From positions 17,174,001-17,238,000 of the forward strand of contig OX359246.1 in the NCBI GenBank assembly GCA_947179485.1: DNA of 64,000 nucleotides, in the 5' to 3' direction. The stretch is from Allacma fusca (taxonomy: Eukaryota > Arthropoda > Collembola > Symphypleona > Sminthuridae). Within the stretch, counting starts at the first letter, position 1, and every line of letters begins with the position of its first letter. The notes under the pieces were generated by a model that saw nothing but the letters and a program-made list of their open reading frames with translations, did not search any database and was not told where the DNA came from. Position numbers and translations under genes: made by a program. Of this stretch, positions 9,872 through 57,439 are shown one piece after another.

Positions 9872-11218
9872 CTACATACCAGTGATGCGATCAAACCGAT
9901 TATTTCAAAACTCGATGTTGGTTCGTATTCGAATTCAGATTACCGATTCGAAGTATGCCTTCAAATCGAAGTTGGTTTTACAAAACCGAATCGAATAAAT
10001 CAAGAATTCGAACAATTTATTCGAATCGAATATCAAAACTAGGTATCGATTTTTATTAATCGATTCGAATTTGGATTCGAAGTTGGTATCGAATCGGTTT
10101 TTTCGATTAATCGGTTAAGTTTATCCATTCCTCAATTTATTTAGATAACAAAGTCTGAGATTTAACAATTCTTTAAAATGAATACGTAGCAACGAAAAGT
10201 TCTTTCGACCCGAACTGTCGCGTCAATTGTCTTATACAATTGACTAAGAACTAATTGCTTTTAGGTGTTTATTTCTTAAACGAATCAAGTTAGCTCGTGG
10301 TCCCGGATGACAATTTAACAAAGCTTGATCTATGTATAAATAAACGTAATACCTACCATTAAACGTTAGACACCTTGAGAATACTATGGAGGAGGTTAGG
10401 GCTTCTTTCGGGACCTGACGTCCCGAAGTTTTCAGGACGGGACCGGGATCGGCACAGTTTCGGGACAAAATCTTTGTCCCCATTTTATTTCGGGACTGAA
10501 TGGCGACGAACGTTCTTGTCCGGAGGATTTCGGGACTGGACAGAATTGTCGCCGGGACAAAAAATTGTCCCAGTAGAAGCCCTAGTGGAGGGTTACAGTA
10601 TAAATATATGTCTATTAAGTAATTTCAAAATATTTAGGAAGCTTATTTGCAATAAAATCTTACTTGAAGTATTTGCAATGATGCAGATTTTCTTTTAACG
10701 TAAAATGATTGTGGGCAACGGATAGGTTTTTTTCGGCGTTGTGGAGTATTCTCACAGCTTTCAGCGTCACTGGTGACAATATCAATGATATTTGCTTCCA
10801 TGTAATTTTAAATTTACGAAAATTAATTTTCAAGACGTTCAAAGTGTTGAGGTTGGGACTCTTACTTCCTCACTACAATCCTCATCAGCCAAGTGGTTAC
10901 TCTCCTCGTGATAAGAATGCCGTGGGGTGTATAATTCGTTGATGGAATTTAAACCCTGGCGAGAATTCGATTGTTCGAAAAACCAATTTCGAATACAAAG
11001 CGATTAAAAACAGAATCGGTATCGAAATTGGATTTGTAGTTTAACTAATCGGTTCGAACTTTAATCGGTTTGATAAACCAACTTCGATTGTTCATTCCAT
11101 TCGAATTATGTTCGGATTAACGCAACCGAACCGATAGCTCTTGGCTAATCGATTCGGTTCGTATTCGAAATCGAACATTTCGATTATAATCGTAATCGGT
11201 CGCATCACTGCTACATAC
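9872..11218. mobile_element. hAT-like non-autonomous element HL1 with 8-bp TSD
   Basis: The element runs 9880-11210 (1,331 bp). Its ends are CAGTGATGCGA and TCGCATCACTG, an 11-bp perfect terminal inverted repeat. Identical 8-bp duplications ctacatac lie at 9872-9879 and 11211-11218 and fit the hAT consensus nTnnnnAn. Both arms are packed with degenerate ATTCGAA / AATCGGTT words. It has no transposase frame, so mobilisation would have to be in trans (inference). A smaller element sits inside it at 10397-10584. Confidence 0.85.
10389..10592. mobile_element. Small hAT-like element HL2 nested in HL1
   Basis: The core is 10397-10584 (188 bp), with ends TAGGGCTTCT and AGAAGCCCTA. It is much more GC-rich than its surroundings and is filled with CGGGAC / GTCCCG words in both orientations. 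The flanking 8-mers gaggaggt and gtggaggg agree at 6 of 8 positions, so the target duplication is imperfect. Nesting implies it inserted after HL1. Confidence 0.55.
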
Positions 11219-11689
11219 GTACATGAATTAATTTCCGATTTCCTAAAACGGAAGTGAGCTGTACACACATACAGATCCATGTGTAAGCAACAAAAAATTA
11301 ATTAATTTTGCCTGCGTAGCAAGTGATCCGTTAAATACATAAAACCTTTGAGCCGTATTAATTTCTTGTTATCATCCATTACTGTAATTTAGGGAATTGC
11401 TCAAACATCTGGATGCAGACTGGAAGCAATTATTGCTCTTGTAGCTTGACGCTTTTCAATGTCAATTATTATTGGGTGTGTCCAAAATAAAGATTTCATT
11501 TTGCAACTGAATATCCGACATTTGTATATGCAAATATTAGGAAAAGAAAACATACACAATAGAATCCTCAGTTGATAATTGAGAACAAAAAAAGAAGTTA
11601 AAAAGTACAGCATTAATAATTTGGAAATAATTGCATTTAATTATTTTAGTGTAAAATTAAAAATAATTCGAATTGTGTATCGATAAAAT
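11219..11689. other. Intergenic, upstream of Gr-A3
   Basis: AT-rich sequence with no exon and no clear TATA box. Confidence 0.4.
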
Positions 11690-14381: not shown

Positions 14382-17175
14382 CTAATCAAGGTTTAAGAAT
14401 CTTGCCAGATGCTCAACAAGGCTGGAGGTAATGGACGCATTGGAAGATTTGGGTTGAAGCCAGTCATCAAAGTGTTGGACCATTGCTATAACGAAGCTTA
14501 TCGTCACGTAAATAAATGTAATAATAACCATCCCGATTATGACGGCCACATTTCTGAGCTGGAGACAAAAAAAACAAAATTTTAAAAGATTCGATACACG
14601 TTTTATTTTAACTCAGTCTCAATTGTAATAAGAAAAATTATGTCAAGGTTCCTTTACCACTCTGACGAAGTTGCGATTCAGTCTTAAACTGAAGATCTTC
14701 ACCGCGGGGTCCGAACTCGTCAGGAGCTTAGTCGTAAATGCTTGGACTTCTGCCCGACACTCCACTGGAATATTATCGTAGGAAACTGTCACTAGAAACA
14801 TTTTGATCCCTATTGCCTGAAAGAATGGTCAAATATTAAACCAATTTTAACGCATCCTTACCAGAGCTGCGTTCAAGTTCAAGTATAACTTGAATAGTTC
14901 AAGTGCGTATCAAGTTCAAGTCAAGTCAAGTGCAGACAATTTTGTAACTTGGAACTTTAACATCAAGTTCAAGTGAAATTATAATTTTAACTTGAATTTT
15001 CAAGTTCAAGTTCCATCAAGTTCAAGTTAATAATTTATTACTTGGTTGTAAAATCAAGTCAAGTTCAAGTACAATGAATGGAAGTACTTGAATAAAACTT
15101 GAGTATAACTTGAGTTTTTGTCACTGAAAAGCAATGAAAGCAATGCCTAATTAGTGGCATCATTGCATATTGCATCCCACTAAAAATAATATTGGGTGTC
15201 TATCATCATAATAATGACATCTTTGTATTTGTTTTCATTCCATCGACATTAAAGTCGCCTCCACGATGGCCAGTGGTCGAGAATAATTCTTGTCCTATTT
15301 CCATACTTTGAATTTTGAATAATTAAAATTTCCGTCTTATTGTTTTATAAAGATGTTCTTTATACTCAGGGTTCTTGTTCCATTATAAAAATGAAGTGAT
15401 TGTTCACTTCACCTGTTCTGAAGCTAAGAAGAAGTTTAAGAATAATTTATTTTTTCATGTAAAAATATTTTTTCCTGATATTAAACATGATGGCGCAGAC
15501 GAACAACCTTATAAATCAACATTGGTTAAATAAAATTAACGACGGCAAATATTTATGACTATAACGGCTGGTTACACTCAACAGATGAGTGCAACACTAA
15601 TGTGAACAGGCCAGTAAAGTGATTTCTAAAATCTTAATAGTGCAAATTAGTAAATTAGATTGGACTACAATGTTTACAGTTATTTGATCAAGTATTTTAA
15701 ATTTTTTAGAAATTTTAAAGTAAAGAATATCACCTGCATGCCGTTTAGTTTATCCTAATCACGATCCATCCATTATTAGCTATAATAGTTGTGGACGAAA
15801 TATTTAGTATTGTTTATTCATTTACTAAAAAATTACTTGAATAATCAAGTTCAAGTACAAGTTCAAGTTCACGTTCAAGTCAAGTTATGTGCCCAACTTG
15901 AACGTCAAGTTATGATCAAGTTCAAGTTCAATAAAATGAACTTGAAAATCGAGTACTTGAATACTCAAGTTGCTTGAGAAACTTGATTCATCAAGTACAA
16001 GTGTGGATACCTCGCTTAGACAATTTTTTCAAGTTCAAGTCAAGTTCAAGTCAAGTTGTCTAAAATAACTTGACTTGAACGCAGCTCTGGAATCCTTACA
16101 AAACATATAGTTTGTCTCTGCATATAAAAACTCTACATAATTTTACTTGATCGGTCATGTTCGCAGCGCTGTTGACAAATCCCAGGAAGAAAGACGACTG
16201 GAGAAAAATAAAGACAGTGAAGCCCCCTAGGGCCAAATTCGCATAAATGGTACAGGCGTACACTAAATGAAACATTACAATGAGAAGCTCGACGAATATG
16301 AATCCTTCAAAGATAAAATTGAACCGGACCAAATCTTCGCAATTTAAGTAGCTTCTTTTCAAAGAACCAAATGCTTCAGTGAACTCTTGTACTTTCCTCT
16401 CGTCAGATTTGAATGGTATCTTTTCCGTAATTTTGTAATCGATACTGAACTTGGGCGAGGGCTCCGTCTGAGCCGTTATCAATGTTTTCAAATGTGAATG
16501 TATCTCTTGAAATTGAAACCGAATCAGTTTGATGGAAAGTGTGGGTAAAATACTAGCAAGGACATGACCCACAAACCAAAACTGCCAGGTAAAGTAGCCC
16601 ATTGCTAGCATCCAGTGAGAGCGGAAATATTCCTGGTATCGAAGGTTCTCATATACAATGCAACCCACGTTGGTCAACACTGCCAGGAGAAAAGCGCCCA
16701 AATATTTTTTCATTTCAGTTCTCATCTCGGCATTGATCGATTCAATCTTCTCTCTAGGGCTGAATTTTGATACTTCTAGTAATATGTGATCCAGGGATTT
16801 CAAAAACTCTGGTAGTTTTCTTGCTGTGTCTAACCCCACGTAAAAGACGGTTTGGTAGAGGATGGCCAGTGCAATGTCGACAACAAAAAATGGGATTAAA
16901 ATTCCAGAGATATTGTTAAAAAACTCAAAAATAACAACGGATCCTTCCGCATTTATACCCAGTGTTTCAGTTTTAACGGCAAATGTGATAGTTCCGAATA
17001 TTCCCATAGCTGTGCTGGCAAGTATGAAGTAAAGCACTTGCTCGGAGCACCATCGAAATTTTAGCTCTTGTCTACGGTTTGTTATTGGGAGGATTCCAAA
17101 ACATTTGCACGCAAAAATTACGGGGTAGAATAAGTGGACGAAGTCCAGTCGAGGGTGCGAGGATTTCCACTCCAT
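14382..17175 (-). CDS. Gustatory receptor-like 7TM protein (Gr-B)
   Basis: Exons on the minus strand are 17175-16147, 14816-14658 and 14558-14382, phase-0 GT-AG junctions, encoding 454 aa. Exon 1 carries most membrane segments: VLYFILASTAMGIFGTITFA, ISGILIPFFVVDIALAILYQ, and FNFIFEGFIFVELLIVMFHL near its end. The last exon gives VIIGMVIITFIYVTISFVIAMVQHF, a TM7 with a Q-H-F ending like the Gr signature, followed by an approximately 30-residue tail. Length and 3' phase-0 introns fit the Gr family, but the sequence is unlike subfamilies A and D. Intron 1 (14817-16146) is almost entirely a hAT-like element, HL3. Both splice sites lie outside the element, so the gene should still be expressed. 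Predicted chemosensory receptor. Confidence 0.8.
14854..16099. mobile_element. hAT-like non-autonomous element HL3 in Gr-B intron 1
   Basis: The element is about 14862-16089. The ends CAGAGCTGCGTTCAAGT and ACTTGAACGCAGCTCTG form a 17-bp perfect terminal inverted repeat. The 8-mer atccttac occurs at 14854-14861 and again at 16092-16099, and it fits nTnnnnAn. Two extra bases separate the right terminus from the duplication. Both arms are dense in TTCAAG / CTTGAA words. The interior (about 15120-15790) is unique AT-rich sequence with no transposase frame. Confidence 0.8.
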
Positions 17176-18513: not shown

Positions 18514-19874
18514 GACGAAACTAGAGCTTCCTTCGGGTTTCCGAAATCCCGAAGTTCCGTGTTCGGAAACGGAACGGAACACTTTCGGAACATTCTCTTT
18601 GGTTCCGTCATTGAATCGGGACAAAACCGGAACATGAGCACTTGTACCGATAATATTGGGACCGGGACGGTTCAGAGCATCGGTACGAAAAATGTCCCAT
18701 ATAATTTATGTCATCGGAAAGCGGAATTGTTCTGTTCCGTTCCGAACCGATCCCGGTACAATTTCTGAAGTGTCGCGCCATCGTTCAACTAGAATGGAAA
18801 CACATTTCTTATCGCACTGGCTTGTAAGCAGTTTTTTGCCAAAATAACGAAATTGGATGAACACAGATTTAATTTGCGCAAATGTTTATATGTAATGCGA
18901 GTATGTAGAGCTTCCAACGTGTTCAACATTTTTGTTCCGTACGAAATTCCGTTCCGTTCCGAAACCTACAAATAATATTGTTCCCGGTTCCGTTCCGGCT
19001 GTCGGGACATCGGAACATTTGAACTGACACCGTTCGGAACAAAGGAGTAAAGTATTTATTCCGTTCCAGGTTGTGTTCCGTTCCGTATTATGCTAGTTTT
19101 TCCGTTCCGAACCCGTTCCGTTCCGAAATATCCCGGAATTTTTCACAACATATACATGAAACGCGTGTACAAATTACTGAAAACTTAATATACATGATAT
19201 ACTTTTAATAGATTGGATGCTAGGGAATGCTATTATTTAATTACATAAAATAATATTTAATAATAATTAGGCCATTTAAAAAGAACTACTGTGCAGTATT
19301 ATATAATTATTATTAATTATTTTTTAGTAATAAATATTTGTAGCGTGTATATTTCAATGGCCTAACAGTGTTAATTTCCTGCAAGCTTGCTTCATTACTG
19401 CTAATAATTTCGATTTCAGAATTTTCATTTCGAGAAAAATCGCCCATGCCCATGTTTATTAAACAAAATTAGTTATTCTGTTGATTTTCATGGAAAACCA
19501 TACTCCGAGTATTAAATATTATTTTATGTAATTAAATAATAGCATTCCCTAGCATCCAATCTATTAAAAGTATATCATGTATATTAAGTTGCCAGTAATT
19601 TGTACACGCATTTCACGTATATGTTGTGAAAAATTCCGGGATATTTCGGAACGGAACGGGTTCGGAACGGAAAAACTAGCATAATACGGAACGGAACACA
19701 ACCTGGAACGGAAAAAATACTTTACTCCTGTGTTCCGAACGGTGTCAGTTCAAATGTTCCGATGTCCCGACAGCCGGAACGGAACCGGGACCAATATTAT
19801 TTGTAGGTTTCGGAACGGAACGGAATTTCTTACGGAACAGAAATGTTGAACACATTGGAAGCTCTAGACGAAAC
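18514..19874. mobile_element. hAT-like foldback element HL4 with long inverted arms and 8-bp TSD
   Basis: The element runs 18522-19866 (1,345 bp). Identical 8-bp duplications gacgaaac lie at 18514-18521 and 19867-19874. The ends are TAGAGCTTCC and GGAAGCTCTA. A second TAGAGCTTCC occurs at 18906, and from there 18906-19261 and 19511-19866 form a nearly perfect inverted repeat with arms of about 356 nt around a 249-nt spacer. The arms are filled with TTCCG / CGGAA words. The part 18522-18905 is related in word content but not part of the long palindrome. No transposase frame. Confidence 0.85.
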
Positions 19875-23199: not shown

Positions 23200-25009
23200 T
23201 TATTTTGGGGTCGGCCGCGATTTTTCTTCATCATTTTTGAACTGAATTAACACCACGACGAATGTCAGGACTGAGCTGAATAACTGAAATATGAACATAT
23301 CATTTGCAAATAAAAACTTGGTTTTTAAAAGAAACATCATGTGGGAACAATTCTTTAAATTAAACCTCACCGAAGCAATACAAGACTTATTCACGACGAA
23401 GTAATCTGCTGCTGTCAAACTGATATTCGTACTGGAAATGTCATGATAAAACCGGCACATCTAAAGTTACAAAAACAAATCGTTTCTTTTCAATTCACCC
23501 TCACTTTTTCATACATTCAAAGGACATTACTCAAATACTTAAATGTGACTGTTTCAATGGTCACCTTTTTCTTGGTACTATCCGAAAAGTTTTGATATGG
23601 GAAGTGCTTCAGCAATTGGATCGGTTTTCGGCTCTGAAAAACAAAAAATATTCCGAATTTGTTTGAGCAGTTATGTACCTCCACAGCGTCATACATGTTC
23701 ATTTTTACTGTGGAGTCTATGCAAAGGAAAACATTCATTGCCTTGTTCCACATCGATGTGAAAATATTTAAAACGGACAAAGCCAAATGATACCAGATAA
23801 AAAAGCATATGAGATTGGAACCTCCATGTGTAGTCTATTCGCTGACACGGCTAGCCAATAAAAGAAATTGGTATGGGTGAAGATGTCCACCAAGGGAGTT
23901 GAAATTCTGTTAATTGAGGCCAAAGTGGTCTCATTATTAGTATTCAAACTTGTCACAATGAGAAAGTATCCACTGGACACCACATTCCCCATTAAAATCA
24001 GTACTTCTATGACCAAAGAAAATCCAAAGAGCTTGCTAATTCGCTGAATGACTTTTTCCACGGAGCAGTAGCAGTCTTTGAGGTAGTTCAATTTTTCTTC
24101 GATGTCTTCACCCCTCAAATAGGTTGGATCTTCGACTCCAAAAGCATTGAAAGGATTACCATCCCCGGAGTAAAAACCTTCTGACTTTTCAACTCGATTC
24201 TCATTCTTAGTGGCGAGTAAGTTAAGTAGCATCAGGAGCTGACCGTTCAAACTTTTGAGGCAGACATAAAGACTGAAAATAAAGTAAATGAGGAGCATGC
24301 AGACTAAAACGTGACTGAGGGTGGTGGAGTCCCAGAGCAAATACGCAATATAGAAGAAGTAGTTCTCAAAGTCATTTTGGAGAGTAACATTGAAAGACAC
24401 GCAAAATCCATTTTGCGTTTCCTGACCTTCCCGAAAAAACAGCTGGGTTGCATTCAAGACCAATACAAAGATGTAGAAAAGGACGCAATTGATGCAAAAC
24501 CTCTTTAGCTTTTTGATTTCTTTGAACTCCAACGCATGGAAATTAATGACGGACATTTGGAACGCTGTTGATAGGTCGCGCCACAATGCAGGAATCTTTC
24601 TTGCGATTGATTTGCCTCTGATGGTTAGTGAGAGGAACCCGAATATATGGATCGTTCGAGCCAAACTGACCGCAACGTCCGCGACTTGAGCCCCGGGCCG
24701 CTCATCGAAGAAACTCTGGTTAATTGCTCGGAAAAAGAAGTAGGAGAGGAGGGCGATGCCGATCGTGAAAATCCAGGAGTACAACATGTTGAGAGAGAAC
24801 CTCAAGTAGCTAATCTTCCCGTGAACGAGACTCACGGGAATGAGGCCAAATACAATATTTAGGAGGAGCAAATGGTAGCCATGGTCCATGAGGAATTTAC
24901 TGGCTTCTTGGCAGTCGTCCATTGGAGGATGCGCCATTGGACAAATTCTTCTGAATTTGGGTTTGACCTTCTTTTGGGTTTCTTTCGTTATGGTAAACTG
25001 AGGATGCAT
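23200..25009 (-). CDS. Gustatory receptor-like 7TM protein, subfamily D copy 1 (Gr-D1)
   Basis: Minus-strand exons 25009-23822, 23633-23565, 23460-23371 and 23283-23200 are all phase 0 and encode 476 aa. An approximately 40-residue cytosolic N-terminus is followed by a conserved block (CQEASKFLMDHGY). Membrane segments include LNMLYSWIFTIGIALLSYFFF and LSHVLVCMLLIYFIFSLYVC. A hydrophilic loop separates them from FSLVIEVLILMGNVVSSGYF. The last exon encodes SSVLTFVVVLIQFK, a clear match to the Gr TM7 signature (T-hydrophobics-QF). Exon 3 (30 codons) ends in TAADYFVVNKSCIAS. The exon 1 donor is weak (GTTCCA), but the junction position is the same in all four D copies. Predicted ligand-gated channel in chemosensory neurons; very similar to Gr-D2 downstream. 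Confidence 0.88.
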
Positions 25010-27892
25010 TTCCTTTTTTTCAGAATTTGTCGAAAGAAATCAAAGAATTCAGTATGGCTCTTGAACTTACCGACTGTCGGGTGAATCTAAACTGAATGTA
25101 TGAGTATTATAAGCAGTGTGTGGATGGATATTGACCGTTTAATTGTGAGCAAGAACATTCGGAACATTAATAAATGACGGGGAAATTTCAAACGGCCATT
25201 ACTCATCGGTACTGATTGCTAAGATCAAGGAGGCCGTTACGACACGTTTTAGAAGCACGATTTGTCCATTAATTTAAGGGTTTATTTTTGTTGATAACAT
25301 GTTATTCTTTTTTATTTACACAGAATATGTATTCAATGGGAGGAATATACTCGGGTTAGCATACTGGAGGATGTTAATGAAACGTTATTACAAATTGAAG
25401 TTCCAATTTGGATAGGGTGGCTCATATTTTTTTCTCCGTGTATTAGAAAGGATTAACTTATGAATTCTAGAGCGAATTCCCTAAATTTCAAGGTACAAGG
25501 TGCCACCAGCTAATTGTCTATTCTCTAGACGACATAGGCAAGCAACTCATAAAATATTTAAATTATTCATTTGTATAAAATAATTATTCCAAAACTTGTC
25601 ACATTCCCTTCGATCAATTTTGCTGTGAAACAAACGAAGCAAAGTCGAAATATTTTGTAATTTGAATTGAAAACTTGTTCATTTTCATACAAAATTATTT
25701 AACAGATATTATTAATGATTATTATCTGAAATTATGGGCTTTCGGAATAATGTTTAGGGCGGCCTGTGTCCAGATTTATTAACACAATCTCTAAGCAAAT
25801 GTAACAAGACGGAAAACGTTCCGTATAAAAGTTAAATCGGGACATCCCATCGTGATATCCACGCGTCACTCCTGCCTTATTATAAAGGTGTAAAGACATT
25901 AATACTTCCGTATGATGTACAATTTCTGCCAAATTGTGCTTCTAAAGCCGGCCTCCTCATATAATCTTCACGAGCTCTAAATTTTAGTTTATATTAGTTT
26001 TCATAACAAAACTAACGTTATTAAAACGTAAACTATTAATACAACATTAAATCAAACATGATCACTTCAATGCATGTAGTATAGTTTCATGTTATTTCAT
26101 ATTCGGGATCATGCCAGTAACGTTGGCCTAAGAATTCATCTCTATTTAAGAATCGATGGCAATGTATCAGAGAATTGACGGAATAAACGCAGACAGGTTA
26201 GTGATCTAAGATCTCATGAGTCTTGATTCAGGAACGAGGATCCACGATTTTCTACCTGCCGTTACTACGTACGATTGCCGAGGCCGGTTTACAGTTATCT
26301 CAGAATTGGAAGAGATTAAAAAAGAATACGAAGATGATTCTGCGATTTTAAATATTCTGAAAATGAAATCAACATCATTTTAACACCGTACAATGGTCTC
26401 GTGTCTGGACGAATGCATTACAGTGGAGGAATAATATCCTGTAGAGTACCGTTATGATGACCTCATTACCAGTGGTTTGTGTGGCGTTTTTTAACTTCGT
26501 ACCTGCCATATATTAAGTGTCGGGTCCGCAGGTCCAAGTTTGCTTCGTATCTTCGTTGGGGCCTCTGTCACATAATCCGTAACTGTGAGCGCGAAGCTCT
26601 ATTTTGTTTTTTAATTTTGCTATGCAAATGAAGCAGAAGCAGCCCAAGGTTTGTTAGCTTTTCAACTGCGTTTTCACGTCAGCGGGGAAATGATTCGAAG
26701 CACGGGGGGTTACTTTATGCTCGGAGTAAGTAAAAGGTGTTCCCTAACTTTTTGGGAGTTCTACAAACACGCTTTGAACGAGCCATGATAACAGACAGAA
26801 TGCAAAGGTAAATATTGTTACACTGCATATTACTCTGTTACGGCGCTTTCCAGACAGTTGATTTTTCAATAACGCGGGGTTCAACAAAAACTACACATCG
26901 ATGGGTACTTTTGGAAATGGCATCAGGGATGCCTCCTAAATATTATCTTTAGTATGCCATGTCTGCATGCCAGTTGAAGTACTAGATTCACTCACAATAA
27001 CTAACACACATGCACCAGGCAATGTATTTAAATTACACCATGCAATGTATTTAAATTTCAAAGGTCAAGGTCGCCGGAAATGATCAATCGGTACTATTCT
27101 TTCTCTTTGTTAACGTGTGGTAATGCAATGCTTCTAAATACTTGTGACCACTTCCAAATTTCACCCGTTGGAACGGTATGGTCTGTGTGAGCAATATAAA
27201 GGTATTTAATTTGTTTAAAGTAATTTGCCGTGGTTCCAGGTCATTTGCCTCATTATTGAAAATAAGCCGACATATGATTAAGCAAAATCTACTTATGCAT
27301 TTCCCTACTCGTACTGACATGAATATCATGACATTTGCTGAAATGTCAAAGGTCATTAAAGTCACACCGATAGGTCAATTACTTAACGGCGTATATTTTT
27401 CTTGTTCTGTCAATGTTGTAGTGCAATGCTTCCAAATACGTCTGACCCATTTCATAGTACGCTCGTTGGAACGGTATGATCTATGATTGTGAAAGTATTG
27501 GCATTTGTCGTAGTCAAAGGTACTTTGACACGTTATTAAAAATAAGCCGACACGCTCAAACACTCAAATATCATAACAGTATCCCAAAACCGCGACCATC
27601 AATATCGCATCATTACCCCACCGACCAACATTAATGAGACATTTTTGTGCACAGAAAAGCACGGTAAGCACGTATATTATAAGACAAGCGTGAATGTGGC
27701 GCATTATCCAGCTTTTTTGTCACTAATTATGCATATATATTTACATACCGCACGTATGCCATCTAACTGAATTCCATATAATTTCACAAGCATTTTCTTA
27801 AATCTTTTAACTTCTGAGTCAACAGTCATTTTGTTTCTTGTATTTTACTTGCACGTTCTTTCCAAATAATATAAAGGGCGGGCTCATTGCAC
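25010..27892. other. Intergenic between Gr-D1 and Gr-D2 (first part)
   Basis: No exon is supported over 2.9 kb. It contains a diverged two-unit direct repeat at about 27058-27560. Otherwise it is AT-rich sequence. Confidence 0.45.
27058..27560. repeat. Diverged direct repeat, two units about 290 bp apart
   Basis: TGCAATGCTT at 27124 and 27422, and GTTGGAACGGTATG at 27167 and 27465, are both 298 bp apart. AATAAGCCGACA at 27261 and 27541 is 280 bp apart. AAAGGTCA motifs occur in both units. No function can be given. Confidence 0.6.
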
Positions 27893-28257
27893 ATTGCCAG
27901 CAGGGGTTGGATTTTTATAAATCTCCCTGGGAGATTTTTTTGATTTTCACTGCTGGTTTTAATGTCCCTTTTCGAAGCAAGTTTAAAACTCCCTGTTGAC
28001 AAAATAATTTCCGTAATACATCCCAACAAATTCAAAAATCCCTACTGAAAGAGGTCAACAAATTGGAAATTCTCTGCTGACAAAAAATTGTTCTCGTAAA
28101 CCATCTTAAAAATTTCGCAAATCCCTGCCCAAAAGAAGGTCCATAGATTTGGCAATCTCTGTTTGTAATCCCGTTTGAAAATTTCCCTGCTAAAAAATGT
28201 TTTTCCCTGGGAGGATTCTTCCCATCTTCCCACATAAATCCGACTCCTAATTGTCAG
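27893..28257. mobile_element. hAT-like non-autonomous element HL5
   Basis: The element runs 27901-28249 (349 bp). The ends CAGGGGTTGGATTT and AAATCCGACTCCTA pair at 11 of 14 positions. The flanking 8-mers attgccag and attgtcag differ at one base, and the first fits nTnnnnAn. The interior repeats degenerate AAATCCCTG...GACAAA words. No coding capacity. Confidence 0.7.
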
Positions 28258-29306
28258 TTGCAAAATTGAACCACGTTGATAATTGTATACAAATGAATCC
28301 TCATGATTCCTTCATTTGAAACAAGGAATTCGTGAAAGGGATTCAATCGACAACTTTGCTTGACCTTCTCCGAAGATCCTTCGTTATACTGTTTCAAGGG
28401 TTGACAAAAACACGAACTATAGAAAAACGTTTGCACTTTAATTGTATCCATTTATCCTAACAAGTGTATTTGATATGTTCAGTAAATATTTGTTTATTTG
28501 TATTTTGTACTAACGTGTATCCAACATTTATTAAATTTCGATTAGTATCACAATGTTCCTATTTGCAAAAAATTCATGGTCTATCAGGAGCATAATTTCC
28601 GAGTTCTTTAATCCTCCCTTGAAGCGAGATTATTAACTGAAGAATTGTTTGTGTGGATTATTTCATGTGACCAAATACAAGGGACTGTTGCTATGTGTAT
28701 ACATATGTTCAATAATCCGGAAATATGTGTATAAAATGCCCTCAAAAGGCATCCCTGATAACGAGAGTTAGCGATTCAATACAAAATTTGATGAATTCCA
28801 GAATTGAAGGAAGATTATCTTTAGATGAAGGTGAATGTGTGTTGATGATTTTTAGAAGGACGGCTAAGGAAAGGTCAAATATTTGAAGAGCTTGTGAAGA
28901 TGTATTAAATGAGATTATTTTACAATATTTTGTCTTGGAAATCTTGAAGCAAGGTTATTTCTTTTGCACTTGGCGGTGCAATTATGTCCAAAGGTGTTTG
29001 CAATAGGCTTACCTACTGCAAGTAACTTATGAACTAATTTGCCTCTTCAACTTCGGTTATTTGCATAATCGAATTGAAAAGTTTTAGCAAGTTTCAGTTA
29101 CAGCATTACTGGTAATTTTAAGTTTAAATGAAACTGAAAAATTAAGTTATTCGCAATTTTTGCTCAGACAGAAACACTACTTTTATTCTTTTTATTTCTT
29201 TCCTGGGTCATGTACACATTTTTAAGTTGTTACAATAATTACAAATAATCCCACACCCTCCACCAAACCGATGAGTCGGTACACGTTTACGAGTTAAATA
29301 GAATGC
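28258..29306. other. Intergenic, 3' flank of Gr-D2
   Basis: No exon seen. A minus-strand AATAAA (plus TTTATT near 29182) lies about 120 bp beyond the Gr-D2 stop and could be its poly(A) signal. Confidence 0.4.
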
Positions 29307-34580: not shown

Positions 34581-36032
34581 TACTTTTCTTTTGATGTCAC
34601 TACTTCATATTATGACTTTCGGACAATACGTCAAAAGAACAAATGACGAATGGTATGGTCATTTGCGATTATTATTCCATAAGTTGCTCGTCAAGTTGGA
34701 ATTGCCTTCTTGCGATTATGGTTGGTACAACGTGTAAATAAACGGAGCTAACCATATTGTTTTCCGAAACATCATACTTCAATTTAATAACAGATTGCTT
34801 CTAGAATCGACATGCTTATTTGCCACATCACACATGGTGATAATTGCATGAGTCGGCTCATCATCGAAACAGGGCAGGGTTGTGCAGTTCAAAACAAATA
34901 TTGATTTTACACTCCAACGACGTGTAGTGTTTATTACGCCAATAATTTACAGCTACAGATAATTAGGTTGCGCGCATAAAAATCATCCAGTGTAGTGGTC
35001 ATCCCGGGAACGGGTACGGGAACAAATATTTTGTTCCCAACCAATTTAGCTACTAGGACATGAACACTCTCAAAATTAGTCTTGTAAGATTTGATAGTTC
35101 TTTATTTATGTAGCAAATCCAATCAGCACATTCCATTATGTTGTCCCTGCAAATTGTACACACAGAATCTTGGCCTTCAAGAAAATAATGTTGCAACTAT
35201 TCACAAACGTTTCTATTTAGAAAGTTTCAGCATAATTGTGTTCTGTTCTAGAATAGTTCCACATGTTCGTATAAAAAAATATTAAAATAATTAGTATTAG
35301 TTTGTGTAAATTCTTTTACAAGTTTCTTACCACACGACAAATTAATTTCTGGAGATATTTTTTTCAAATAAAACTAATAAAGAGAAACTCATCCGTGCTG
35401 GAATATATTCTCAGGTGCATGCAATGTATATTCACATATGTAAAATAATTTTTATATTTGGGCCAGCAATTATGCAATCTCAAAGATTAAGTACAATTTT
35501 TAATCCCTCGTCATCATTAAATTTGTTTAGTGGGAGGGTAACATAAATCCTCCATTTATTTTTGTATCCTTTCGCATTATGTAGTAATTTAAAGTTTTGA
35601 TTTTAGATCCATTCAGAACATAGTCTCTGAAGAATTAAACAATCAGTTATTATGTGGTTACGTTTCGCACTGCGAGGGGGCTAAGCCACCCAGCATATTT
35701 TCTGTTTTTCATCAGCAAAACGGCGGTCTTGGTAATTACAGAAATCCTGGTAATCTTTGCTGCACTTCAGCACAATATGACTTGGACCCGGGAATATAAG
35801 CTGTGGGAAAGCGGACGGGTTCATAACGTTTTTAATTTTTGGGTGAGGGAATAGGAACGTCCGGGTATGCATCTTAATTAAATTCATGGGAACGGATGCC
35901 TAAAATACTATTCTGGAAATGGTTACTGGAACACGTAGTGGGAGTACCCATTGAGTGGGAATAGGACCGGACACAAGCATTTTGTATACCCATAATGGTC
36001 ACTGGCTCCAATGATATAAAATCTTTGTGCAA
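34581..36032. other. Intergenic between Gr-D3 and Gr-D4, mostly an element remnant
   Basis: No exon is supported. Most of it (34993-36005) may be a degraded hAT-like element; see the separate entry. Confidence 0.4.
34985..36013. mobile_element. Possible degraded hAT-like element HL6
   Basis: The left end TAGTGGTCAT (34993) and the right end ATGGTCACTG (to 36004) pair imperfectly and follow the YAGTG rule. Flanking atccagtg and ctccaatg agree at 6 of 8 positions, with a one-base offset on the right. CGGGAAC / GGGAAC words are frequent near both ends and absent from nearby sequence. Evidence is weaker than for the other elements. Confidence 0.4.
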
Positions 36033-38161: not shown

Positions 38162-38560
38162 ATTTAGTCAATTACAGAATCGTATTTTGAATCAGATGTT
38201 TTGCAATTATTATTGTTATTATTTTACCCAAAACTTAATGGAGGCTGCTTAGCCCACACTATTATTAACAACTGTTGGAGCTAATATTTAATACTAAGAA
38301 CAAAATATTCTGGTTTCAATTGGTTCCTTTTCCTTGGAAAAAAACATCATATGTTCAATGTCCTATTATGATTAGATTGCGACCACGTAAATAAAAAATA
38401 ACACGGAATAGCTATTAGCAAGGAATTCATTCCTGGAATCCGGTATTTTGGACGTAAATTTCTGCCATGTATGAAAAAAACACATTATCTTTTTGCATGA
38501 TCGAATAATTACCACAGCGTATGTACATGTGTATAAATCCTTAAAATATAGTAAACACTA

Positions 38561-38657
38561 GCACTGCACAGCCAGCTATTGCTGGCTTCGAAAGGCTTCA
38601 TAGTTAGTTGTTTCAGACGCATAGCACATGGCACAGAAATAGCTAACTGTGCAGTGT
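38561..38657. mobile_element. TA-flanked mini-MITE, family M2 copy 1
   Basis: The ends GCACTGCACAGCC and AACTGTGCAGTGT are inverted repeats flanked by TA on both sides. The element is only 97 bp. A sister copy lies at 39670-39748 with the same terminal words and AGCTATTG next to the TIR. Confidence 0.6.
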
Positions 38658-38945
38658 TACTATCTATATAAACATTAACGTACGACACAGAGAAAGGGCT
38701 AATGGATTAATCGGCTAGTATCAAAATATTCTAGACAAAATGTGGCTACTGAGATGCATAAACAAAGTTCGGTTTCGTTAATAGAAAATACACACCAATT
38801 GTTAATACACGCATGTTACATACCGCAAAAAAAAATCGGGTAAGGTAATTGGTACTCTCAATTGCAAACCAATAGGAGTTTCTACCCTTTAAGAGGGAGA
38901 GCAAAGATTTAATTTTCATCATCGTCAAATTACGTTATCAGATAA

Positions 38946-39025
38946 CGGATCAAGCCACCGCTTGCGTCGGCGGATAACCCCAATTTCCCAATGACAGCAC
39001 CGACGCAGTCTAGTGCCTTGATCCG
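38946..39025. repeat. Short imperfect hairpin repeat
   Basis: The arms CGGATCAAGCCAC...TGCGTCGG and CCGACGCA...GTGCCTTGATCCG pair over about 25 bases around a short loop. It may be a tiny MITE. No clear target duplication. Confidence 0.5.
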
Positions 39026-39669
39026 CCAGTATTAAAATTCTATTTAATAATGAAATAATTTTTTTCAAATAGAATATTTTTTAAAATAATGAACGTTGCT
39101 TCTGAAATACAAATTCGTATGATATAATCTAAGAGAACTTCTTTAAATACACAACTTGCAATTTGTACTCGCGAACCTAGAGGAATTAGGAGAGATTTAG
39201 CCAATAGCCTTAGTAAAGCCTATTTAATTACTCCAATATATTATAGTAATTAAAAATCAAAAAAATTAAAAAACATTTTCTAAAACATAATTACTTGTGT
39301 ATGTACATTCACCTTCGCCCATTATTTCACCTCGTTCGACAGTTTCAGTTACAACGACCTATATATTTTCTTTAGACTTAGTTCAACATACAGTAGCTCA
39401 TAAAAGTTCACCAAAACTTTGTCCCTGACATTTATTGACTGTCTTTGCAAATAATCCTCTAATAGGAAACCGTCTTCACTTTAATACAAATGTATAGCCA
39501 CTGATTATATTGCTAAAAATGTAGCCCGTGACAATATCCCCGCCCCTGGTACTGTATAGTGCTTTGATATTCCTCTCATCTAACAATAATTAAGTTGCAG
39601 AAAGAGTATATAGTCTCCGTGACGGTAAGAATCAAATTTTTGCGCACTCTTGATGCATCCACGACCATA

Positions 39670-39748
39670 GCACTGCGCCGCTAGCTATTGTATGTACCAT
39701 AAACATACATTTGCCTTGCTTAGCCAACAATAGTTGGCTGTGCAGTGC
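39670..39748. mobile_element. TA-flanked mini-MITE, family M2 copy 2
   Basis: 79 bp with ends GCACTGCGCCGCTAGC and GGCTGTGCAGTGC, flanked by TA. Same family as 38561-38657. Confidence 0.6.
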
Positions 39749-39795: not shown

Positions 39796-40740
39796 CTCCC
39801 GAACAGAGCTATGCAAAATACTTGGTCTTCGTTGACAAAATACAAAATAAAGTACTTGAAATAAAATATGGAAAATACAAAGTAAAATACTTCAGGTTAT
39901 ATTGCTAAAATACAAATGAAAATACAATACATGGTAGGTATTTCAAAATACTCAAATACAAAATACTGTATTTTAAATACAATACTTTCCTTAAAATACC
40001 CACCTACATACTGCTCACTCTTTTTGGTTTCTAGAACACAAACCTATTAGAACAGCCACTTCAAACACAATGCATATAAGACATGTGTAGTAACAAATTG
40101 TTCAACGGTTGCCGAATAGGTCAGTCCATTAAAATGTATTATATTATAAATCGTTTTGAATGTTAATGGAGTAGATTAATATAAAAGTTGTATTTACATA
40201 CTAGTAATTAGATGAATTTTCGAAATGATTATTATAAAAAATAGTTATTATCTGAAAATTAAATCGAGTCGGTCTTCGGCTTATATTAAATATCGTTGTT
40301 GCAGAGCAAAATGGTCTGTGCTGCACAAAAGCATGCGAGCGTAGACCATTCCGCCTCTTTAACGACGTAATGCAGTATCGAGAACCTGAAAATGTTAGAT
40401 GTAGTAAAGGGATTCATTCCAACGTATGTCATTCCAGTGCTAAAATGGAATTTGCACAGATATTTCACATCATACAAGCTGCATAAAATGTCAAAATAAG
40501 AAGTAATACTAGTGAAAACTATTTTGAGCCAAATACTTTATTTGAAATACAATTCACATGTCAACAGAAAGTAAGTAAATAACAAATACTTTTGTACTTA
40601 CTGGTCCTCAAAATACTACGTACAAAATACTTGCTCACTGCTCACCAACATTGAAATACAAAATACAAAATACTTTGTGGTCTGAAAATACGTATTTTAA
40701 AATACTGTATTTTAAAATACTGCATAGCTCTGCTCCCGAA
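39796..40740. mobile_element. hAT-like non-autonomous element HL7 with perfect TIR and TSD
   Basis: The element runs 39804-40732 (929 bp). The ends CAGAGCTATGCA and TGCATAGCTCTG are a 12-bp perfect inverted repeat. Identical 8-bp duplications ctcccgaa lie at 39796-39803 and 40733-40740 and fit nTnnnnAn. Both arms are full of AAAATAC / GTATTTT words, while the central part (about 40020-40520) lacks them. There is no transposase frame. Its terminal CAGAGCT is shared with HL3 although the internal words differ. Confidence 0.88.
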
Positions 40741-53352: not shown

Positions 53353-53425
53353 CGCACCGCAAGCTTAACCTAATTAACAGTTGACATCCAGTAATTTTCA
53401 CGTCGTAAAGTTCTGCGGTCAAATA

Positions 53426-56400
53426 ATGTTCCACAAAAATTTACCAATTTTTGTCCTTGCTTTTGCTGGACTAGGCTCTTGTCAGAATCCACCTCCGGCC
53501 CAAAAAGCCGTTCAAGTAGTGAAGCTTCCAGCGTTCGAAGATGAAACCACATTTTGCATTCCTCATCCTCAGCAATTCCAAAGAAATTTTTACAGGAGCA
53601 AATTAGATGGAGCAGTGTGTTGTCGAGGGAATATCATTCAAGCAGCTACCATTTTGCCGGATGTGACTGGTGAATGTGCAATGACTACCAAAACTGAGTC
53701 CAATGGGATTGTGAACACGGCTGGATTGGTACGAAGTTTTTATTTAAATTTTAGGGTGCTATTAATTCTCGATTATAATTATTCACAGTATAAGTTGTTT
53801 CTATTTTTTTATTCTTTCAGTGGTGTGCTTATACTTGCTCCCTCAAAAAGCTTGGGATGGTAAGATATAATGATATATATAATGATTTTACGAGAGGACG
53901 ACTTAAAAATGAAGTTGCAAAAACACACTTTACAATATTAGATGGACGCCAAGGGTTTCACAAAACCAGTGGAATTTTACAACCACCTGGCACGGGGTCT
54001 GGGGCCTAAAACCAAGGAAAACGTTAGACTGGTTATGGATAAACATTTCAAGTGTATGGTTCCCATTAAAAATCCTAAATTCCCTTGTTACACCCCATTG
54101 GCCTTCCATAAATGCTATATTGACTCTCTGGAGTACCTTTGCAACCATGGACTGCCACCAAATGGGGATTTCAGCAAGGTGGCGCCTCCGAAGGTTCGTG
54201 GAAAAGCTATAATAAGTTGTAAAACTGTAATAATTATTATGTATATGCATGTACTATAATGATAGCCCTGCTGAAACACGAGGCTTGGAAAGTGAATTTT
54301 AAATGTGCTGGGAGATTTTGTAAGTGACTGTGTATAAAACAAATTATGAGTAGGTGGATTACGTCAATTTACAACCTACGTGCGAAATCAATGGGAAACA
54401 AGTAATGCCAGCTTGCTGTCACGGGCGCCCCCTACCATGGACTATTTCAGATATTGTGGAAGCACCTAGGGACAAAAATAAAATGAAAACTTGCATGACA
54501 AATATGCAAAATCGAGTGGTAATTTTGAACCTTGAATATAACTATGATGAAGAATTTCTAGGTGTTTAGTCTTCCTCTTGATCGTGTTCTTGTTGAGTAT
54601 CAATTACCAAAAAGGTTTAGCATATCCGGTGTTTATGTATGTTCCATTGGAAAAACAGCCTTTTATGCCTATTATTATTGGACTTTTTGTTAGAGTGTAT
54701 TCGGTAGCTCGCAAAAATTCCGCTGTAACGTACACGCAAGATTTAGGCGTACATAGTGCTATCCATATGATTCGCGTTAATTATTGGACACTTGTCCGTT
54801 GATTTGAATCCCCGCGCGCTATTACTAGCAATTTAGCTCTGCACTGCAAGGACATATCGTCGGTGAAGAGGCAAAATGATCTAGGTGCATGATCGATTAG
54901 AATCAAAATGATCTACATGCAGTTTCACTAAAGTCAAAATGAACTACTTGCATTGAATTTTAAAATCAAAATGATCTAGATGCAGTTTCTCTTAAAAGCA
55001 AAATGATCTAGATGCAAATTATAATAAAAAAAATACGTGTAAACACATTATAATGTCAGTATATGAATATGCGAGAAATTAAAAATCTTTTTTGTTCCTA
55101 AAAAAATTAGTTATTCTGCGTTTAAATTATATTATAAAATACAAAATAAATACTAGGAGGCAGTAAACCCAAAATTGTAGTTTTCAGGAAAAGTAATGTG
55201 ATAGTGATTTGAGGTCAGATTATATTATTTAATTATAATGAAATTTTATTAAATATTTATTCACTGACCCCTTATAATAATTAACAATAATAATAATTAA
55301 TAATAATAATAATTACAGTCCTTATAAGCTACGTGCCCTCCTTGCAGAAGCTATTTTTCTCACACAGAAATTCAGGACAGCACTTAGATCATTTTGCTTT
55401 TATGGAAAACTGCATATAGGTCAGTTTGCTTTTAAAAAGACTTGTACCTAGTTCATTTTGCCTTTAGGGAAAAAGTTATGTAGATCATTTTGATTCTAAT
55501 CGAGTATGCACCTAGATCATTTTGCCTCTTCACCGACGATATAATGATGCTCTGCTAATAAAGTGTATACTGCAATCTGCCAAGTGTAAAGTAAGGCGCA
55601 ATTTTAAAGTCATTTTAATATATCGTTAGGGGTTGTGTGTTGACAACAGCAATCTTGACAAAAGCTGCTTGTTTCTGTAATATGGTAAAATACTTAAACG
55701 GTAGTTTTGCAAAGGGCATATCATCGGTGAATAGGTCAAATCGTCAAGGTGCTTATTTGATTTGACCTGTATTGTGGCTCTGGTATACACAATAGTAAGA
55801 GCCCAAAGAGGGGAAAATTCGAGAACTTATCCAGGCCATCAGCATGGTTGGAAGGAGATGAAGCATGATTTCAATTTTCTTGCTAGAAGGAGAGAGTCCG
55901 AAAATGTAATTGCTGCTATCCAATTTACTGAGATTTATTACTATTGCATATAATAACAGAAGCATCAAATCTCGATAATATTTCTCGACAAGAAAAGCTC
56001 CCGTAGCACTTCAGGACTTAGATGTGCAGACCAACAAAATGTGCACATTCGCACCCCCCCTCCAAAGGACTATCCCTTCAAAGGAGAGCTTTTTAATATT
56101 TTGTAATACAAAAATTTAAACGAATCGTAGGATTGGCAAGGATAGTTTGCATTGGCACGGATAGATATGCCTAGGTAGTTATAGGTACATACCAGTGGTC
56201 GGACTTTGATTCATCAATACAATACTCTAGTGCTATTTTTGTACAGTTGCCTTTACCTGTACTGTGCTTTACTATAGTCTGGATATGATAATTGTTTCAA
56301 TACAATGCTTTACTTTTAAAAGCACATCGAAATATGTTTCAATACTCTACTTTACTACACTAGTTATGCAAAAATAGTTATCAGTACTTTGCTTTACTCT

Positions 56401-57439
56401 ACTAGTTATACATAAATAGTTATCAATACTGTGCTTTACCCATAGAAGTACGTATATAATCGTCAATATTGTATAATCACAAATATCGCCCGTTCATTCT
56501 GCTTTCGTTTGTCGTTTTAATGTCGTATGCTAAATGTCTAACGTAAGTAGTTCCTCCGTAAATTTACTAGATGGGGTCCTTTGCGTGTATCAATAATTTG
56601 CTGTACTTTATATGAATTTGTATTATTTATAACAATTCGTTGCTTTGCTTTACTTGTTTTTATTGCTATAGCGGCTTTTCAATACTGTGTCAATAGTTCA
56701 TGCTGTGAATAGATGTAGATACTGTACTCTGCTTTGTTGACGAAATATAATGATGATGCGTTACTGTACCAATGCTGTACTTTTATCAATACTGTACTAA
56801 AAAGTACAGTACAGTCCGACCACTGGTACATACATACACTTATGTGTCAACGTTTAATGAATTTATGTCTTATGTATATGTTATTTTCAGTGCTCAGCTA
56901 CCTGTTTCATGAATTCCGCTGGAGTGGTAAGAAAAGCTTAATGTAACTTACTGTAAGCTTACTGTAAGCTCTCAACCTTATAGTAAATTGTGAAGCCATA
57001 ATTTAAATACAATTACGTAAGTACCATACAACATCAATCTCATTACCCGTAATATAACACTTTAAGGTGAACGACTCCATGGAGCTAGATGTTGATCGAT
57101 TTAACAAACAATTCCTCGGACTTTTCCCATTTGTCCAGCCTTCCATCTGGATGAATTTTCTCGGCCCTACTTACGTCTTCTTTGACGAAACGCTGGAGGA
57201 AATGTCAGGTAGTTTGAAAATTTTGTACAACATTGACTATTGATCAGAACTTGATCAGGAAACTTCATTATAAGGAGTAACTAAAATAATTAAACATTTT
57301 GGTATATTTTGAAGCCAAAATTCCAACTGCAGCCAGAGTTTGTCTATTCCACGATAAAATCCTTAATTTCCATGAGGACAAGATTCAGCAGTATTGCGAG
57401 ATGTCTCCGCAAGAAATTCAAGCTATCGGTAAACAATAA
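53426..57439 (+). CDS. Secreted two-domain odorant-binding-protein-like protein (seven exons)
   Basis: Exons 53426-53728, 53821-53859, 53942-54178, 54354-54518, 56891-56926, 57067-57208 and 57315-57439 give 348 aa. A signal peptide (MFHKNLPIFVLAFAGLGSC) starts the chain. Two successive halves share a Cys pattern: C44, C65-C66, C84, C103-x3-C107 and C203, C214-C215, C240, C249-x3-C253. The WCAYTCSLKKLGMMDAKGF stretch resembles the helix of classical OBPs that carries Cys-x3-Cys. In each half that motif sits alone in a 36-39-nt exon bounded by phase-0 introns. Expected role: binding of small hydrophobic ligands in lymph. OBP assignment is inferred from pattern; another Cys-rich secreted family is possible. 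The donor after exon 3 could instead be at 54193 (five codons longer). Intron 4 (2.4 kb) hosts two mobile elements. The poly(A) signal overlaps the stop. Confidence 0.72.
54855..55541. mobile_element. TA-flanked element M3 with five-unit repeat arrays in each arm
   Basis: The element runs 54857-55539 and lies in intron 4 of the OBP-like gene. Its ends TCGTCGGTGAAGAGGC and GCCTCTTCACCGACGA form a perfect inverted repeat flanked by TA. Similarity continues inward: each arm has about five copies, near 32 nt apart, of a unit around AAAATGATCTAGATGCA, in opposite orientations. No coding capacity. Confidence 0.75.
55719..55769. repeat. Solo end related to element M3
   Basis: TATCATCGGTGAATAGGTCA matches the M3 terminus (TATCGTCGGTGAAGAGGCAA) with a few substitutions, and no partner end is visible nearby. 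It is followed by a small inverted repeat, AGGTCAAAT...GATTTGACCT. Confidence 0.5.
56185..56833. mobile_element. hAT-like non-autonomous element HL8 with perfect TIR and TSD
   Basis: The element runs 56193-56825 (633 bp) in intron 4 of the OBP-like gene. The ends CAGTGGTCGGAC and GTCCGACCACTG are a 12-bp perfect inverted repeat. Identical 8-bp duplications gtacatac lie at 56185-56192 and 56826-56833 and fit nTnnnnAn. The arms repeat TACTGT / CTTTACT words. No transposase frame. Confidence 0.88.

Follow-up and report, generated by a model that had tools for sequence, protein, structure and literature searches.

To our knowledge, little is understood of the ways in which hAT transposases acquire a new DNA address and keep from moving one another's elements. 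Subterminal repeats peculiar to an element have been described before in this superfamily, in Tgf2, Herves and Hermes, and the comparisons that follow draw on parts of the cited reports. The two arms of Tgf2 carry 17 and 18 subterminal repeats, and efficient binding to an end that contains five repeats depends on its N-terminal zinc finger (PMC4890040). The fish elements Tol2 and Tgf2 resemble those described below in their inverted ends, 8-bp duplication and many subterminal repeats in both arms (PMC4890040), but have another word, whereas here many lineages with different words occur in one genome. In the mosquito element Herves, the transposase binds CG/AATTCAT, a motif that recurs in the subterminal region of both ends, and its authors noted that the sequence of the binding region varies between hAT elements, ensuring specificity; that part of the report, unlike the present case, concerns one element whose motif is repeated several times with variants, and does not set sister transposases of a single genome against each other (PMC3143072). 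The BED domain of Hermes, from the house fly, binds AAG(T/C) subterminal repeats, with 17 sites in one end and 14 in the other (PMC10368747), a four-base site where the arrays here consist of one longer word. In the portion of the study drawn on here, hAT-derived CGG-binding proteins with BED and Hermes DNA-binding domains show diverse specificity, mostly for CGG and in some cases AT-rich, and the specificities of hAT proteins match subterminal regions (PMC8097297). CGG and AT-rich sites recur here, in CGGATA, CGGAAC, CGGGAC and AT-rich words, but those proteins, so far as that portion describes them, are mostly domesticated host proteins across species, whereas our comparison is of element families in one genome. 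What is newer here is the scale and the turnover within a single genome: a literature search by title and abstract, with Repbase reports and most subscription journals outside its coverage, returned no report of a single genome in which numerous hAT lineages each carry another word.

In the window, a 64,000-nucleotide stretch of Allacma fusca DNA, the original prediction had placed six hAT-like elements with 8-bp duplications and two weaker members, HL2 and HL6 (Table 1). The duplications are exact and the inverted ends match in the window copies of HL1, HL4, HL7 and HL8; HL3 has inverted ends and a duplication (ATCCTTAC) that is offset on the right by 2 bp, and the duplication of HL5 contains one mismatch. 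In controls with shifted duplications, 0, 0 and 2 matches were obtained, vs. 5 for the true scan of the window. The terminal inverted repeats start with [CT]AG[AGT]G, the common terminus that had been proposed, except at the right end of HL5, which, read inward, starts with TAGGA and matches [CT]AG only. HL3 and HL7 start with CAGAG, as do the ends of Tol2. The nTnnnnAn rule of the Ac group of hAT is obeyed by the duplications of five of the six window elements, just as had been claimed. HL2 lies inside HL1, its flanks (GAGGAGGT / GTGGAGGG) differ at two positions, and it appears to travel within full-length HL1 copies. Neither inspection of the sequence around 35000 nor the window scan, with one duplication mismatch allowed, yielded a bounded element corresponding to HL6. 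The window copy of HL4 is three-ended, with a third, internal end at 18906. No coding for a transposase was seen in the window copies.

Table 1. Elements bounded in the window, with their ends, target duplications and arm words
Element	Position	Strand	Type	Ends	Duplication	Word
HL1	9880..11210	.	non-autonomous hAT element	CAGTGATGCGA	CTACATAC	ATTCGA (ATTCGAA), both arms
HL2	10397..10584	.	small element, 188 bp, within HL1	TAGGGCTTC		CGGGAC
HL3	14862..16089	.	non-autonomous hAT element	CAGAGCTGCGTTCAAG		ACTTGA/TCAAGT
HL4	18522..19866	.	hAT element	TAGAGCTTCC	GACGAAAC	CGGAAC
HL5	27901..28249	.	hAT-like, 349 bp	CAGGGGTTGGATTT / TAGGAGTCGGATTT	ATTGCCAG/ATTGTCAG	
HL7	39804..40732	.	non-autonomous hAT element	CAGAGCTATGCA	CTCCCGAA	AAATAC (AAAATAC)
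HL8	56193..56825	.	non-autonomous hAT element	CAGTGGTCGGACT	GTACATAC	looser array

In a genome-wide search for the ends, the hAT elements HL1, HL3, HL4, HL7 and HL8 each had many copies, and 8-bp duplications accompany them. Exact HL3 ends occur 812 times, vs. none for the reversed pattern, and end patterns of HL1, HL4, HL7 and HL8 occur 132, 456, 617 and 143 times, respectively. Full-length matches were present at 35 of 40 scored genome places for HL1 and at 28 of 40 for HL8, the window copy being counted in each case. Clean 8-bp duplications flank 25 of 30 HL3 loci; they were also seen at 16/20 loci of the HL7 family and at every one of the additional pairs of ends from HL1, HL4 and HL8 (8/8). 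The nTnnnnAn rule fits 19 of 25 HL3 duplications and only 5 of 15 in HL7.

Arrays of one word in both arms, proposed for each element, were found in HL1, HL3, HL4 and HL7, marginally in HL8 and not in HL5. When the commonest canonical 6-mer, summed over both arms (220 bp each; 211 bp in HL8 and 116 bp in HL5), was compared with 200 Markov shuffles, not one shuffle reached the counts of ACTTGA in HL3 (36), AAATAC in HL7 (26), CGGAAC in HL4 (19), ATTCGA in HL1 (11) or CTGTAC in HL8 (8). The looser array ascribed to HL5 was not recovered, as its top word occurs 4 times, a count reached in 72/200 shuffles. CGGGAC, the word suggested for HL2, was retained with 5 copies and 0/200 shuffles (tested as 10397-10585, one base too long). 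When 1000 pairs of 220-bp segments were drawn at random from the rest of the window, the same count had its 99% point at 7 and its maximum at 9; HL8 barely exceeds this background because four of the 1000 pairs score 8 or more, and its arms are unlike in their commonest 6-mer (CTTTAC on the left, CTGTAC on the right, with CAATAC also on the left).

As had been expected, word density separates arms from centres. HL1 has 12 + 5 words in its 270-bp arms and none in its 791-bp centre, HL3 has 21 + 22 in arms of the same length and one in the centre, HL7 has 13 + 13 and one, and the centre of HL8 contains a single copy when TACTGT is used as the word. The exception is HL4, with 12 copies in the centre, because the window copy is three-ended. 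The words lie on both strands and are irregularly spaced, with short tandem runs at 15845-15931, 16029-16057 and 40685-40722. Further, the description of related elements with the same end rule and a word that differs between lineages holds, but the words are only roughly private to element families: locus L055 carries the HL3 word between other ends, one of its arms being partly homologous to an HL3 arm, and ATATCG is common to L033 and the outer element of L059. Once the L047 fragment had been dropped, no clear array could be ascribed to 6 of 22 rows in the main transposase clade, nor to about 21 of the 27 other hATC rows examined (L082 counted as having one). The control set of non-hAT inverted-repeat elements consisted mostly of sub-repeats of hAT arrays; the only clean member, at 38561-39748 of the window, had no array (top word 4, n = 1).

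Variation among genome copies was compared between word columns, arm spacer and centre in a test slightly biased in its own favour, the word columns having been set on the consensus. In 29 of the 30 fetched HL3 copies (one was dropped), the mean minor-base frequency was 0.27% in word columns, 1.46% in spacer and 2.12% in the centre, so that word columns were 5-8 times less variable than the others; none of 2000 shifts was as low, and word columns lay below spacer for all four bases taken separately. For HL7 (16/20 copies, four being dropped for lack of an exact end) the corresponding values were 2.9%, 5.1% and 7.2%, with 3/2000 shifts as low. The gap frequency in HL7 was highest in word columns, at 4.4%, against 3.0% in spacer and 0.3% in the centre, and therefore array length changes even where the letters are kept. 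The low variation of word columns points to selection on the words of HL3 and, less strongly, on those of HL7.

A relative with a hAT transposase, of the kind that the original prediction had said to look for, was found for HL3, as a 4.7-kb element with a BED finger, an hATC domain, near-identical ends and the same word. It occupies positions 659-5353 (4695 bp) of the joined stretch L119+L118+L111, its ends are identical to those of HL3 at 14/16 and 15/16 positions, and its left and right arms contain 13 and 16 TCAAGT words. The hATC domain scored 45.4 bits and the BED finger (PF02892), with exons joined, 31.3 bits against a cut-off of 20.6; L111 alone, with half a BED finger, reached 17.6 bits against that cut-off, and Pfam did not recognize its RNase-H part. 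The ends lack a matching duplication (GAACGTAG / ATCCCAGC), and the copy is therefore old or rearranged. A second transposase element, L083, is complete, with duplication GCGGAGTA, 24 CGGATA words over its two arms, a BED finger of 35.6 bits (PF02892, exons joined) and an hATC domain of 48.5 bits; PF14372 scored 22.3, under its cut-off of 27. L008, which has an hATC domain, and a transposase-less element in L025 both have CAGAGATGTTCAAATGATTTT and GAAGGA words, and L007, whose hATC is 82% identical to that of L008, has 16 GAAGGA words. The array beside L008 probably belongs to it, although a second hATC gene lies on the array's other side.

Similar pairings were sought by position. An HL1 end pattern at C8:48522302 lies 255 bp from an hATC match at C8:48522571, and an HL8 end pattern at C1:47982173 lies 1217 bp from such a match, both in the right orientation and by coordinates only (chance expectations 0.006 and 0.03, before correction for the five families examined). 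For HL3, HL4 and HL7, 100 listed ends per family on C1 were set against 76 hATC places, and none of these places lay within 4 kb of the HL4 or HL7 ends. Within 7 kb there was one fitting HL3 pair by coordinates (end C1:3952903, hATC C1:3958399, 5.5 kb); HL7 gave three pairs, two of them in the wrong orientation and the third fitting but at the end of a short copy, and HL4 gave two, both wrong-way. Among the first 100 of the 812 listed HL3 places, four pairs of ends separated by over 1.8 kb were picked out by eye, and the three that were read were rejected as carriers of the HL3 transposase: in L059 an HL3 copy is interrupted by nested insertions, the centre of L060 is longer and lacks an open frame above 98 codons, and L061 is an HL3 copy with a nested element bearing an hATC fragment (23.4 bits). 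For L103, no BED finger was seen by eye in L120.

In a hand-picked set of 21 transposase loci that have arrays, word content tracks hATC relatedness (Mantel r 0.69, 0/5000), and it does so after removal of near-duplicates (18 loci, r 0.545, 0/5000). Seven loci whose array was weak, incomplete or a neighbour's (L082, L086, L088, L116, L003, L004 and L085) were excluded, as was every locus with fewer than 7 words; L008_m2 was dropped because its array was assigned to a neighbouring element, L092 was dropped as AT-rich, and L115 was cut to 450 bp. Loci less than 60% identical in hATC have hardly any word content in common, and of ten pairs at 70-80% identity five keep most of their words. At about 70% identity of the hATC regions, the word cosine is 0.00 for L106 vs. 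L110 and 0.21-0.22 for L083 and L099 vs. L103, whereas L099 and L100, at a similar hATC distance, have kept their word (0.83).

Cumulatively, these observations make it highly probable that several related hAT families are present whose arm arrays are putative BED-finger sites that turn over with the transposase. The word of a family would most likely be the site for the N-terminal BED zinc finger of its own transposase, because of what is seen in other hAT elements and because word and transposase are paired. Many sites in both arms may gather the transposase and direct it to the DNA that is to be moved. Selection would keep the word while the family is active, as low variation indicates for HL3 and HL7, and the word would be replaced as transposase lineages diverge, a pattern seen across the lineages for which such divergence is the presumed cause. 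With many sister transposases beside numerous copies of their own putative words, the BED-finger code could be worked out by comparison and then tested by binding and excision, which makes this genome a good test bed.

The correlation of word with transposase fits co-evolution, raised earlier as a possibility, but joint descent by itself would yield it too. The words could thus be inherited passively with the arms, lineages differing by drift without any co-evolution of finger and word. Beyond the shared word, the arms of HL3 and of its transposase element are weakly alignable at most (of 200 nulls with the same composition, 5 and 23 attained the alignment scores), which is in line with passive inheritance. 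However, HL3 words vary little, and the change of a whole array at about 70% hATC identity is not readily produced by drift at single sites; we therefore regard passive inheritance as unlikely, though it is the alternative that deserves most weight.

VANDAL elements of Arabidopsis, which are Mutator-like, suggest another role, in which the arrays serve expression as targets of an anti-silencing or regulatory factor encoded by the element. In the part of the VANC report drawn on here, lineage-specific short motifs form dense non-coding arrays that change fast and with the binding protein, as here, but the protein is an anti-silencing factor and the motifs are tandem in one orientation, where we find a hAT transposase (PMC5735166). 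One arm does lie at the expected place of a promoter; yet the arrays stand at both ends, the HL elements, with no transposase coding seen in them, would have no direct gain from expression, and the DNA-binding domain found in both transposase elements that were read from end to end is the BED finger of the transposase itself, all of which makes an expression role improbable. An origin of the words as common microsatellite or low-complexity sequence that lies near element ends by chance, as AT-rich words such as AAAATAC and the short tandem runs might suggest, is very improbable: they lie on both strands at irregular spacing, occupy both arms and not the centre (HL4 apart), recur in copies, show less variation than any other columns of HL3 and HL7, and in HL1, HL3, HL4 and HL7 exceed the maximum of 9 attained by random segment pairs. 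This contradicts a background origin for HL1, HL3, HL4 and HL7, with HL8 near the limit and HL5 without an array, and warns annotators that such arrays can be element ends instead of microsatellites. Membership of another superfamily with 8-bp duplications, which the window copies without a visible transposase would allow, is hardly credible given a hAT transposase bounded by HL3-type ends and words, though the comparison by position gave no such partner for HL4 or HL7.

Returning to turnover of putative BED-finger sites with the transposase, we tentatively propose a more specific history, which we rate somewhat below an even chance: one hAT transposase clade here may have switched its recognition word repeatedly, in some cases by small steps that kept a CGG core, each switch rebuilding the arrays of both arms and leaving transposase-less followers behind. 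If so, the genome would offer a naturally formed collection in which each BED finger is paired with its word, and from which a BED recognition code could be read. Words with the CGG core include CGGATA, CGGATC and AACCGA/CGGTTC, to which, by the look of their ends, HL4 (CGGAAC) and HL2 (CGGGAC) may be added.

The hAT-like elements of the window belong to a known kind, and the short words crowding their arms are a real feature of them. Scanning the window for inverted ends flanked by 8-bp duplications recovered HL1, HL4, HL7 and HL8 exactly, and HL5 was added once one mismatch in the duplication was allowed, a setting at which shifted-duplication controls gave 0, 0 and 2 hits vs. 5 real ones. 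In the window copy of HL3, the right-hand duplication is offset by two bases. The expectation of related elements with consistent 8-bp duplications was borne out in copies from across the genome (392.7 Mb, 91 contigs): duplications were clean at 25 of 30 fetched HL3 loci, exact at 16 of 20 HL7 loci (L043 and L044 have the same flank and hence are not independent) and exact in all eight further copies with both ends read (HL1 and HL8, n = 3 each; HL4, n = 2). End patterns numbered 812 for HL3, 617 for HL7, 456 for HL4, 143 for HL8 and 132 for HL1, with the backwards pattern found once for HL8 and never for the others. HL3 was matched at about full length at 38 of 40 scored places; HL2 is located inside HL1 and apparently moves along with it, since HL1 was full length at 35 of 40. 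The window HL4 is unusual, its full length being unmatched at any other scored place (the usual form is ~980 bp), and its three ends arose perhaps from faulty repair during transposition. Three evenly spaced HL8 copies on another contig are likely a tandem duplication.

Summed over both arms, the commonest 6-mer had 36 copies (HL3), 26 (HL7), 19 (HL4), 11 (HL1) and 8 (HL8), and for each of these elements none of 200 Markov shuffles reached the count; the top 6-mer of HL5 (4 copies) was reached in 72. Because random pairs of 220-bp window segments (n = 1000) had a 99% point of 7 and a maximum of 9, the HL8 array is marginal by this measure. A word dense in both arms, as originally noted, holds for HL1, HL3, HL4 and HL7, less firmly for HL8 and not for HL5. 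The words lie on either strand with irregular gaps and are nearly absent from the centre (0 in 791 bp of HL1, 1 in 688 of HL3, 1 in 389 of HL7), except in HL4, where the extra internal end accounts for 12 in 805 bp.

The same rule yielded further bounded elements in fetched and window sequence totalling 323.6 kb. When 14 stretches from loci were shuffled, ten stood at 0/200: L014 (CCTATA), L025 (GAAGGA), L038 (HL7 family), L055 (ACTTGA), L059 outer (ACGATA) and inner (ACTTGA/ACATGA), L082 (ATAACG), L033 (ATATCG), L011 (CAATTC) and L083 (CGGATA). The others were L086 (bounded on one side only; 1/200), L040 (12/200), L061 (18/200, the CGGGAC words of its inserted element being one-sided and not significant) and L019 (69/200). 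In HL elements other than its own, each word appears only 0–2 times, but privacy is not strict: L055 carries the HL3 word between ends CAGGCCTG, with one arm 76% identical to an HL3 arm over 138 bp, so that in this case the word was retained and the end altered. In the nested L059, every nested element has its own word.

Low variation of the words extends the case. Across 29 HL3 copies aligned in a single orientation, the minor base had a mean frequency of 0.27% in columns belonging to a word, against 1.46% for spacer columns of the arms and 2.12% for the centre. Word columns were below spacer for all four bases separately, and shifting the word mask circularly gave a value as low in 0 of 2000 trials. 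For HL7 (16 copies) the values were 2.9, 5.1 and 7.2% (3 of 2000 shifts), although word columns also had the most gaps (4.4%; spacer 3.0%, centre 0.3%). Since the consensus defines which columns count as word, the comparison leans slightly toward low word variation. The pattern points to selection on the word in source elements.

A second extension is the pairing with transposases. The search for hATC, the C-terminal transposase domain, gave 860 candidates, 150 of them listed as matches; the 47 loci examined were chosen by us and not at random (8 cut out with the search, 5 with long open frames, 20 for distinct scores and 14 more, of which 13 match hATC positions 24–27 to ~84 and L117 matches 1–83). 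A transposase-bearing relative with nearly the same ends was read for HL3: L111 with upstream L118 and L119 forms a 4695-bp element with HL3-like ends (14/16 and 15/16 bases), TCAAGT arrays of 13 and 16 words in its arms, an intron-split BED finger, hATC and, by eye, RNase-H-like exons. Its left end resembles by eye the AAGTTCAAGTA end of HL3 and its right end the AAGTCAAGT end; its flanks formed no duplication. One further HL3 candidate, by coordinates, lay among 100 listed ends, and HL1 and HL8 end patterns were linked to nearby hATC matches by coordinates alone; no partner appeared among 100 listed ends each for HL4 and HL7. The L083 element, 3369 bp long, has duplication GCGGAGTA, a BED finger and hATC, and its two arms together hold 24 CGGATA words. 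L008 and the element in L025 make a second pair; a caveat is that another hATC gene sits on the far side of the L008 array. Three identical-scoring hATC matches on C8 probably reflect a hAT-bearing unit repeated in tandem.

A profile matched hATC in the 47 loci and in three flanking cases; with one of the latter, L047, left out, the tree has 49 rows. In it, an own array of at least 7 words accompanied 16 of 22 rows of the GVPxExxF-type clade and 5 of 27 outside it, six counting L082 by shuffle test. Words within the clade included CGGATA, ATCCGA/CGGATC, AACCGA, CGAGTA, ACTCGA, ACTTGA, CAAGTC, ATTCAA/GATTCA, GTTTCA, ACTGAA/ACCGAA and GGACCA; those outside were CACTAC (L005), AGAATA (L006), GAAGGA/CCTTCA (L007 and L008) and AGTAAG (L095), the last recalling the AAGTA-type repeats of Tol2. 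Since each locus count is the highest from many sliding windows and a count of 7 (L006, L107, L109, L112, L114) does no more than equal the maximum of 438 background windows, these loci rest on the whole word spectrum and not on one word. Among 21 loci with arrays, mean cosine of word spectra was 0.84 at ≥80% hATC identity (4 pairs), 0.48 at 70–80% (10 pairs; 5 above 0.5, 1 below 0.1), 0.29 at 60–70% (12 pairs) and 0.00–0.01 below 60% (184 pairs, 181 under 0.1). Given this fall and the Mantel result (r = 0.69, 0/5000; 0.545, 0/5000 minus three near-duplicates), the words track their transposases and give way to others over a narrow span of divergence, a pattern that fits co-evolution and does not prove it.

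In the portions of the literature drawn on here, Hermes has short subterminal repeats bound by its BED domain (PMC10368747), Tgf2 forms without the N-terminal finger bind a five-repeat end poorly (PMC4890040), four motif copies suffice for Herves binding (PMC3143072), and measured BED specificities of hAT-derived proteins are diverse, most with CGG (PMC8097297). By analogy with the first three, we infer that the words would be sites bound by BED. Confidence in this reading is lowered very slightly by the additional hATC gene next to L008 and by the gap frequencies in HL7. For array dynamics, the best parallel in those portions is VANC/VANDAL, whose dense arrays change fast and are matched to a binding protein that changes too (PMC5735166). 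What is of interest here is how many lineages one genome contains and how fast turnover runs among them.

Coordinates of the features (contig, window or locus-local positions)
Feature	Position	Details
Window	C8:17174001-17238000	
HL3 query	window 14863-16090	one base off
HL4	window 18522-19866	ends 18522, 18906 (internal), 19866 within one 8-bp duplication
HL5	window 27901-28249	
HL8 copies	C12:39275905, 39278828, 39281751	spacing 2,923 bp
hATC matches	C8:28181777, 28191590, 28201403	9,813 bp apart
AGTAAG array	L095 350-580	hATC locus outside main clade
L059, HL3 copy	C1:1270877-1274376	
Element in L059	635-2851	ends TAGGCATTGGCA; words ACGATA/ATATCG
At least one more within it	1447-2452	ends CAGAG[AT]TGAT; words ACTTGA/ACATGA
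L061, HL3 copy	C1:23514042-23516420	
Element interrupting L061	753-2311	ends TAGGGTTC; duplication ACTTGACT; hATC fragment, 23.4 bits
Long open frames	window 23768-38167	several, mutually similar by eye
Tandem repeat	window 8307-8821	148-bp unit, 3.5 copies
Inverted-repeat element	window 38561-39748	1,188 bp; TA flanks; GCACTGCACAGCC ends; without word array

Among seven open frames of the window tested, one matches insect cuticle proteins and one 7tm chemosensory receptors, which marks the host as an arthropod; the receptor match is one of the mutually similar long frames, which are probably a receptor gene cluster.
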